From positions 1,488,001 through 1,552,000 of the forward strand of contig NZ_JACHJW010000001.1 of the NCBI RefSeq assembly GCF_014203835.1: a DNA stretch of 64,000 nucleotides, written 5' to 3'. The position numbers and the translations under genes are program-made. Shown here in pieces: positions 27,773 to 29,392 of this stretch (positions are counted from its first letter, which is position 1; each line of letters starts with the position of its first letter). The notes beneath the pieces were generated by a model. That model had not been told where the DNA came from. It searched no databases and was given only the letters and a program-made list of their open reading frames with translations. The DNA comes from Micromonospora polyrhachis (lineage in GTDB: Bacteria > Actinomycetota > Actinomycetes > Mycobacteriales > Micromonosporaceae).

Positions 27773-27789
27773 TACTACATGCGGTAGTA
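27773..27789. promoter_or_regulatory. Inverted repeat TACTAC-N5-GTAGTA before the oxidoreductase gene
   Basis: TACTAC (27773-27778) and GTAGTA (27784-27789) are 62 nt before the start codon, in an AT-rich patch. The spacing resembles operators of BlaI/MecI-type repressors, but no such regulator is nearby. Confidence 0.4.
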
Positions 27790-27850
27790 GTTAAAACAAA
27801 GACTGACCAGTGGCCACCCCCGATGCCTGATTGGTCCACAGGAGGACCCG

Positions 27851-29392
27851 ATGATCAGAAGTATCGCCCTGTCCGTCAGCCCAGAACTTGGCTTCCCCAG
27901 TTGGCTTCGCGTCACCCACCTCATCAATTTCCTGCTCATCGGACTGTTGATCCGAAGTGGGTGGGAAATAATCTCCAGCCACCCTCGGATGTACTGGCGC
28001 AACGACTGCGGCCCCGGCACGGAGTGGATTCGGTTCACCAGGAAGAAGGTGCCCGCCGAAGAGGGCGTCTACTTCGCGCGCGACGACGAGTGCAGCCTGT
28101 CCCCGTTGATCTCGTTGCCCGGCCGAAAGAACATCGGCATCGCCCGGCACTGGCACGCGATCGTGACCGCACTCTGGACGCTCAACGGGCTCGCATACGT
28201 CGGCCTGCTCTTCGGCACCGGCCAGTGGCGTCGGATCGTACCCACGTCATGGGACGTCTTCCCGCAGGCCTGGGAATCACTCAAGATCTACGCCGGCCTC
28301 GGCATTCCATCGATCGAGCACTTCCAACCGTACGACGCGTTGCAGCAGCTCATGTACTTCGTGGTCGTCTTCGTCGCCGCACCGTTGATGATCGCAACCG
28401 GCCCGGTCATGTCCCCGGCCGTGGTCGGCCGGTTCCCGTGGTACGCCCGACTCTTCGGCGGGCGTCAGGCCGCACGATCACTGCACTTCCTGGGCATGGC
28501 CTTCCTCGCAGTGTTCATCGTCATCCACGTGACGCTCGTGTTCGTCGTCCACCCGCGATACAACCTGACCCACATGATGCTCGGCGAGGGCGACCCGGCC
28601 CGGTTTGGTCAGGCACTGACCATGGCGATCGCCGGCATCGTCACGGTCGTGGCTCTCTGGCTGGCCGCCAGCTACTGGAGCCTGGCCGACCTACGTCGGG
28701 CCCAGGTCGTCCTCAACAACCTCGGCGAACCGCTGCGTCAGGCAACCGTCAACCACTTCTCCTCCCGGCAGCGCCGCAAGCAGGTGTGGGCCGAGAAGGA
28801 CATCTCGCCCTACCACTGGAGCAATGGCCGGCATCCCGTGGGTGACGAGTCACCCGAGTGGAACGCCCTGATGGCGAACGCCTGGAAGGACTACCGGCTG
28901 GAGATCGGCGGCCTCGTCGAGAAGCCGATCTCACTGAGCCTGGAGGATCTGCGGGCCATGCCACGGCAGGAACAGATCACCCTACACACCTGCATGCAGG
29001 GGTGGACCGGGATCGCCAAATGGGGCGGGGTGCGGTTGTCGGACGTGTTGGCCCTGGTGGAGAAGAAGCCCAACGCCAGGTACCTGAAGTTCACCTCCTT
29101 CGGCCTGGCGCAGAAGATGCACGGCGGCCGGCCGCTGGAGCCGTACTACAGCTGCTTCGGTGTGGACCTCATCTACCAGGACGAAACGATCCTGGCCTTC
29201 GACATGAACGACAAGCCACTGCCCCTCACCTTCGGCGCCCCGCTGCGGTTGCGGGTTGAGGAGATCCACGGCTACAAGATGGTCAAGTACCTACGCAAGA
29301 TCGAGTGGATCGAGGACTACCGCACCGAGGGCGACGGCCAGGGCGGCACCCGCGAGGACTCCAGCTACCAGGTCATCAACGCGCGGATCTGA
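27851..29392 (+). CDS. Cytochrome b561-like membrane domain fused to a sulfite-oxidase-family molybdopterin domain
   Basis: A 513-aa fusion. Residues 20-280 hold five hydrophobic segments (about 20-40, 100-122, 162-186, 208-233, 254-277) with candidate haem ligands His23, His100/102, His212 and His226. Residues 345-500 are a molybdopterin domain: SLSLEDLRAMPRQEQITLHT, then Cys381 as Mo ligand in TCMQGWTGIAKWGG, and VEEIHGYKMVKYLRKIEWI. In MsrPQ these functions are separate proteins, the Mo subunit being exported by Tat. Here there is no Tat signal, and Arg-rich loops after segments 1, 3 and 5 place the Mo domain in the cytoplasm. AGGAGG lies 6 nt before the ATG. Substrate unknown. Confidence 0.88.
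   Translation: MIRSIALSVSPELGFPSWLRVTHLINFLLIGLLIRSGWEIISSHPRMYWRNDCGPGTEWIRFTRKKVPAEEGVYFARDDECSLSPLISLPGRKNIGIARHWHAIVTALWTLNGLAYVGLLFGTGQWRRIVPTSWDVFPQAWESLKIYAGLGIPSIEHFQPYDALQQLMYFVVVFVAAPLMIATGPVMSPAVVGRFPWYARLFGGRQAARSLHFLGMAFLAVFIVIHVTLVFVVHPRYNLTHMMLGEGDPARFGQALTMAIAGIVTVVALWLAASYWSLADLRRAQVVLNNLGEPLRQATVNHFSSRQRRKQVWAEKDISPYHWSNGRHPVGDESPEWNALMANAWKDYRLEIGGLVEKPISLSLEDLRAMPRQEQITLHTCMQGWTGIAKWGGVRLSDVLALVEKKPNARYLKFTSFGLAQKMHGGRPLEPYYSCFGVDLIYQDETILAFDMNDKPLPLTFGAPLRLRVEEIHGYKMVKYLRKIEWIEDYRTEGDGQGGTREDSSYQVINARI

Follow-up and report, generated by a model that had tools for sequence, protein, structure and literature searches.

A single-chain cytochrome b/molybdopterin oxidoreductase family with a membrane domain predicted to be inverted

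Introduction

Di-heme cytochromes b of the FdnI and HyaC type have four helices, keep their N terminus inside the cell, and bind their partner on the periplasmic face. NarGHI oxidizes quinol outside, has its Mo site inside, and is electrogenic; NarG belongs to the DMSO reductase family and is accompanied by Fe-S relay subunits. To our knowledge, a change in the direction of insertion of an entire membrane domain has been recognized in few protein families.

In MsrPQ (YedYZ), a membrane-bound b-type cytochrome feeds a Mo protein of the sulfite oxidase family; the two are separate subunits and MsrP is Tat exported and periplasmic, as described in PMC5449189. The Sco3746 family of Streptomyces coelicolor (eLife 2017, PMC5449189) holds both parts in one chain, with five transmembrane domains (TMDs), a C-terminal Mo domain and predicted b hemes. 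According to that report, a twin arginine precedes TMD5, cysteine labeling and reporters demonstrate five helices with the N terminus inside and Tat-dependent export of the C-terminal domain, and this export takes place although positive charges follow TMD5.

Here, we analyze a gene in a 64,000-nucleotide stretch of the Micromonospora polyrhachis genome (the window, to which all positions below refer). Sequence comparisons support its product, P0001, as a variant of the known cytochrome b/sulfite oxidase module that is probably inverted in the membrane. P0001 resembles MsrPQ in pairing a b-type cytochrome with a sulfite-oxidase-family Mo protein, but it is a single chain and has no twin arginine (RR) signal. 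It resembles Sco3746 in chain organization and helix number; we do not assign it to that family, since it lacks the conserved twin arginine directly before TMD5, and it matches the Sco3746-like proteins of its relatives in the Mo domain only. With FdnI and HyaC it shares the fold and the four heme-ligand histidines. It is predicted to work like NarGHI, with no homology indicated by any match in the present analysis. In the literature searched, whose coverage excluded most subscription journals, we found no account of the fused family or of its inversion.

Domain organization and conserved residues

The gene (27851-29392, + strand) is a single-frame ORF with an ATG start that encodes a single-chain cytochrome b/molybdopterin oxidoreductase of 513 amino acids, and a Shine-Dalgarno-like AGGAGG can be read 5 nt 5' of the ATG (27840..27845, +). 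The in-frame fusion proposed in the earlier note is confirmed by two Pfam matches above their cut-offs, PF01292 (di-heme cytochrome b, FdnI/HyaC fold; residues 15-243, 70.5 bits, cut-off 30.1) and PF00174 (sulfite-oxidase-family Mo domain; residues 344-489, 108.1 bits, cut-off 24). The same note had named a frame error merging two genes as a possible objection; this is excluded by single-frame fusions, of which 93 full-length members were aligned and 98 entered the charge count below. In its own genome of 7.15 Mb, P0001 is the sole PF01292 protein and the sole PF00174 protein found. Its top NCBIfam match is MsrP (NF003767), at 78.2 bits against a cut-off of 207, and its scores with the SorA, SoxC and SorT equivalog models (67, 40 and 34 bits) are all far below the cut-offs of 600, 420 and 570, so that it was assigned to none of these families. 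Where we checked, members of the fused family are annotated merely as "molybdopterin-dependent oxidoreductase."

An AlphaFold2 model of P0001 built from 58 aligned sequences (pLDDT 91.8, pTM 0.89) contains five long helices, in agreement with the five transmembrane regions seen by hydropathy and with the helix count of the earlier note, followed by a beta-rich C-terminal domain. AlphaFold2 models are blind to which side of the membrane is inside and hold no heme, Mo or quinone. The cytochrome core matches the folds of FdnI (1kqf_C; Z 12.2 and 3.4 A for 185 residues) and HyaC (6g94_A, Z 10.0), and the Mo domain reaches Z scores of up to 17.3 in matches to sulfite dehydrogenases, sulfite oxidases, YedY and yeast nitrate reductase.

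All features of the chain lie on the + strand. TM1 (residues 17-43, 27899..27979) carries the candidate heme ligand H23 and is predicted, from charge and an additional N-terminal helix in relatives, to run from outside to inside. It is followed by a Lys/Arg-rich loop 1 (residues 44-94, 27980..28132; mean of 7.6 Lys+Arg over residues 43-98 in 93 members), predicted to be cytoplasmic, and by TM2 (residues 95-123, 28133..28219) with H102. TM3 (residues 163-187, 28337..28411) starts beside a Y-N/D-x-x-Q motif, a candidate quinone site on the predicted outer face. TM4 (residues 205-232, 28463..28546) contributes H212 and H226. TM5 (residues 249-279, 28595..28687), placed by AlphaFold2, hydropathy and comparison with relatives, has no preceding twin arginine. 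A linker that is positively charged in the 93-member alignment (residues 280-343, 28688..28879) leads into the Mo domain (residues 344-489, 28880..29317), assigned by Pfam and fold match; both are predicted to be cytoplasmic.

These residues are strongly conserved in the alignment of 93 fused members, which omits identical rows (including L047), the window's own copies, and the fragments L057, L068, L123 and L126. H23, H102 and H226 are found in 93/93 members and H212 in 92/93, and all four align with the ligands of HyaC and FdnI. Cys381 (28991..28993), which the earlier note had singled out and which is the predicted Mo ligand, is invariant (93/93), as is Gln383 (28997..28999; 93/93), and the surrounding C-x-x-G-W is present in 91/93. 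In the Y-N/D-x-x-Q motif, which is common to FdnI, all 98 fused rows have N or D at the second position and Q at the last. Arg35, inside TM1, is likewise found in 98/98 fused rows; in the two-gene relatives described below, the commonest residues there are Gly, Ala and Met.

Upstream of the gene, a palindrome, TACTAC-N5-GTAGTA (27773-27789, 61 bases 5' of the gene), is unique in the window and was found in none of the shuffled sequences. We rejected it as a promoter element: it is absent upstream of 92/92 relatives, and the genome has 5 sites compared to 13 for the reversed control.

Membrane orientation

We counted the Lys and Arg residues lying no more than 12 residues from either end of each of the helices TM1 to TM4; the flanks of TM5 were left out because the charges after the last helix of Sco3746 are misleading. 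The fused family favors an outside N terminus in 98/98 rows (mean Lys+Arg 2.77 versus 7.48), the reverse of the cytoplasmic N terminus typical of the PF01292 type, from which the family therefore appears to depart. The cytochromes encoded by two-gene systems favor an inside N terminus in 28/28 rows (mean 9.64 versus 5.18), or 27/27 without L148, which is misaligned at TM1, and HyaC and FdnI show the same N-in pattern. The helices of the fused and two-gene proteins align cleanly and their heme ligands are identical.

Helix parity offers a second line of evidence. An extra N-terminal hydrophobic helix (TM0) that resembles a signal anchor is present in 44/93 fused members, in most of them preceded by a motif of the type VHYPPDRRFRIWIRP, and an AlphaFold2 model of one of them (L078, pLDDT 85.0) shows it as a separate 24-residue helix at residues 25-48. 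Lys and Arg are more numerous before TM0 than after it in 41 of these 44 proteins, with three ties, one of them L098, whose start codon is probably set too far in, and no reverse case. An N-in TM0 followed by five more helices would place the C terminus inside. The TM0 leads of three Bacteroidota members (L086, L098 and L113; DRRMF) resemble a Tat motif, which would leave the parity unaffected.

The Tat pathway was examined as well. P0001 has no RR at its N terminus or before TM5, its only RR pairs being at residues 127, 282 and 308, and RR near TM5 is sporadic across the 93 members. In the genomes of relatives, RR precedes the last helix in 18/18 other Mo fusions that have at least four transmembrane helices ahead of their Mo domain. 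The absence of a Tat signal claimed in the earlier note is thus borne out. Its placement of the Mo domain in the cytoplasm, drawn from the charges of a single protein, gains stronger support than such an inference allowed, since the reversed charges throughout the family, TM0 and the lack of a Tat signal all point to an inside C terminus.

Two-gene relatives and origin of the fusion

In the two-gene version of the module (e.g., L133-L136 and L139-L148), a stand-alone four-helix cytochrome b is followed by a separate Mo protein. These systems share with the fused family the cytochrome b core, the aligned heme ligands and a homologous Mo domain, and they differ in their N-in charge pattern, in the lack of TM5 and in their export signals. 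All 29 Mo partners have RR together with a Cys positioned as in a lipobox, which predicts their export; 24 of them match a strict RR-plus-lipobox pattern, and the remaining five (L150, L154, L160, L161 and L166) were recognized by eye. Their Mo ligand motif also differs, being C-V/I-E-G-W in 29/29 compared to C-x-Q-G-W in the fused family, so that Glu stands in place of Gln383.

When the cytochrome b core was used to build a tree, a single branch (SH-aLRT 95) separated the 51 fused rows from all others, with one change of state. The tree comprises 80 rows, including 51/98 fused and 27/28 two-gene rows, and its 148 columns are few and its two outgroup branches long, which makes the rooting weak. 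This pattern is consistent with one fusion-plus-inversion event. The module would exist in opposite orientations, each paired with Mo partners that are homologous but differ in export status, which makes charge, Tat dependence and cofactor location testable side by side.

Genomic neighborhoods

Neighboring genes were surveyed at 83 loci (L031-L113). A gene for a nitric oxide reductase of the qNOR type (PF22085 plus PF00115 in the representative) lies nearby at 7/83 loci, namely, in five Actinomyces, where it is divergently transcribed, in Aeromicrobium, and in one acidobacterium. RIC/YtfE is nearby at 4/83, giving 11/83 with either gene, and TM_HPP at 12/83, all in Acidobacteriota. The TM_HPP gene (PF04982) sits directly downstream of the family gene at L110:4429-5169 and at 11 further loci, probably in one operon. 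Nitrite is transported by an HPP protein (Maeda 2014, cited by PMC4137279 and PMC7438415), and YtfE has been reported to reduce nitrite to NO (PMC9052748). Among the ORFs listed around the window gene, there is no qNOR, RIC/YtfE or HPP neighbor.

At the genome level, qNOR is rare in the phylum (7/296 sampled genomes) and present in the window's own genome, where a qNOR-type nitric oxide reductase gene (L172:2227-4878) lies 3.8 Mb from the P0001 gene. Its co-occurrence with the family is weak (2/10 family genomes versus 5/286 others), with p 0.02 when the own genome is included and 0.17 when it is not. The NirK model TIGR02376 scores above its cut-off in 2/24 family genomes and matches at E <= 0.001 in 19/24, including the own genome, indicating many NirK-like proteins below the cut-off. 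The idea that P0001 replaces a missing NO-forming nitrite reductase is unsupported, as genomes with a family gene commonly encode NirK-like proteins. Overall, nitrogen oxides are the leading hint to the substrate class and not a finding.

A polytopic membrane protein recurs beside acidobacterial members (cluster of L079:108-1565; 7 loci, L072, L074, L078, L079, L085, L094 and L096). Its assignment as NnrS was dropped, since neither Pfam nor NCBIfam contains a model that matches it at 1e-5.

Proposed mechanism and alternatives

We consider it probable that P0001 is an inverted cytochrome b with a tethered cytoplasmic Mo enzyme, that is, an electrogenic quinol:acceptor oxidoreductase that works like NarGHI in one chain. 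The four-helix di-heme core, homologous to FdnI and HyaC, would be inserted upside down, with its N terminus outside; the Mo domain, which comes after TM5, would be inside. Because it follows TM5, the Mo domain is expected on the face of the H102/H212 heme, as in FdnI relatives; the partner of FdnI is on this same relative face of the cytochrome and is periplasmic. The H23/H226 heme and the candidate quinone site would then be on the opposite face, the outer one if the domain is inverted; the FdnI equivalent of Y-N/D-x-x-Q lies at the quinone site of that protein. Quinol would be oxidized at the outer face, where its protons would be released, and its electrons would pass by way of the two hemes to the Mo site. 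An oxo-substrate would be reduced there with uptake of cytoplasmic protons, so that charge would be moved across the membrane, as in NarGHI. We infer the reductase direction because it is the one that conserves energy. The link between the quinone pool and a cytoplasmic oxo-transfer substrate suggested in the earlier note would fit this scheme.

This reading draws its topology from sequence, and it calls for a rare whole-domain inversion, given that the closest relatives of known structure, FdnI and HyaC, have their N terminus inside. The fold and heme ligands shared with these two proteins would also suit a classical orientation, in which the N terminus is inside and the Mo domain is brought outside by Sec or by an unrecognized Tat signal at TM5, much as in a fused MsrPQ or a Sco3746-like protein. 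Under such an arrangement, the Mo domain would have to cross unfolded and obtain its cofactor outside, judging from what is generally known of Tat and the Mo cofactor; moreover, the charge bias is reversed in every fused row, TM0 members have six helices, and RR before TM5 is missing in P0001 and sporadic elsewhere. We therefore regard the classical orientation as improbable, even though the Sco3746 report shows a five-helix Mo fusion to be C-out and positive charges follow TM5 in both proteins.

With the inverted orientation retained, the chain might do other work. It could be a non-respiratory, quinol-fed enzyme of low flux that repairs sulfoxides or N-hydroxylated compounds in the cytoplasm, an alternative of some weight though still doubtful: MsrP is the best-scoring named Mo family, albeit below cut-off, and the gene is isolated in the window, where no denitrification gene was seen next to it, but no repair gene was noted among the annotated recurrent neighbors and the position of Glu in the exported sisters is taken by Gln. 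Alternatively, the Mo site could oxidize a cytoplasmic substrate such as sulfite while the cytochrome reduces quinone, in line with the many dehydrogenases in the sulfite oxidase family. Electrons would then run outward and reduce quinone at the outer face, at a cost in proton motive force, and no sulfur oxidation genes were seen among the part of the neighbor clusters that was annotated; this dehydrogenase role seems very improbable. The electrogenic quinol oxidoreductase that we favor can be specified further as a cytoplasmic, quinol-driven, proton-motive-force-generating nitrate/nitrite reductase, in which an inverted FdnI-type cytochrome b and a sulfite-oxidase-type enzyme form a one-chain counterpart of NarGHI from unrelated parts. 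We put this forward tentatively and consider it unlikely in so specific a form.

Distribution of the family

The search of other genomes for the domain pair, suggested in the earlier note, found it to be widespread across bacteria and archaea. A scan of genome contigs confirmed at least 558 relatives. The best 80 of these, a sample biased to close ones, represent eleven named phyla: Actinomycetota (30), Acidobacteriota (22), Chloroflexota (8), Planctomycetota (7), Bacteroidota and Verrucomicrobiota (3 each), Vulcanimicrobiota (2), and Myxococcota, Pseudomonadota, Gemmatimonadota and Nitrososphaerota (one each), with one relative lacking a phylum. If the proposed mechanism is true, genes in these eleven phyla would encode quinol-linked cytoplasmic Mo enzymes that possibly conserve energy. 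Within the own phylum, 10/296 sampled genomes carry a family gene at E <= 1e-60. No relative was found in the viral contigs searched, and plasmid records yielded 122 with at least 80% coverage, including haloarchaea, Rhodococcus and Bradyrhizobium.

Several individual loci deserve mention. At L123/L126 (G097 C18) and L068, the cytochrome part and the Mo part are encoded in separate, overlapping frames, representing either frameshifts or real splits. On a plasmid of Arthrobacter sp. FW306-05-C, a gene (L132:1055-1981) encodes TM0 to TM5 of the fused family with no Mo domain after TM5 and no adjoining Mo gene, suggestive of a truncated copy or of a cytochrome used alone. Isoptericola luteus has identical copies of the family protein on two contigs (L047 and L048) with a shared neighborhood. 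In Corynebacterium marinum, the family gene (L031:4705-6228) is carried on a mobilizable plasmid, where it adjoins a class I SAM methyltransferase gene and has a Crp/Fnr regulator and metal-handling genes nearby.
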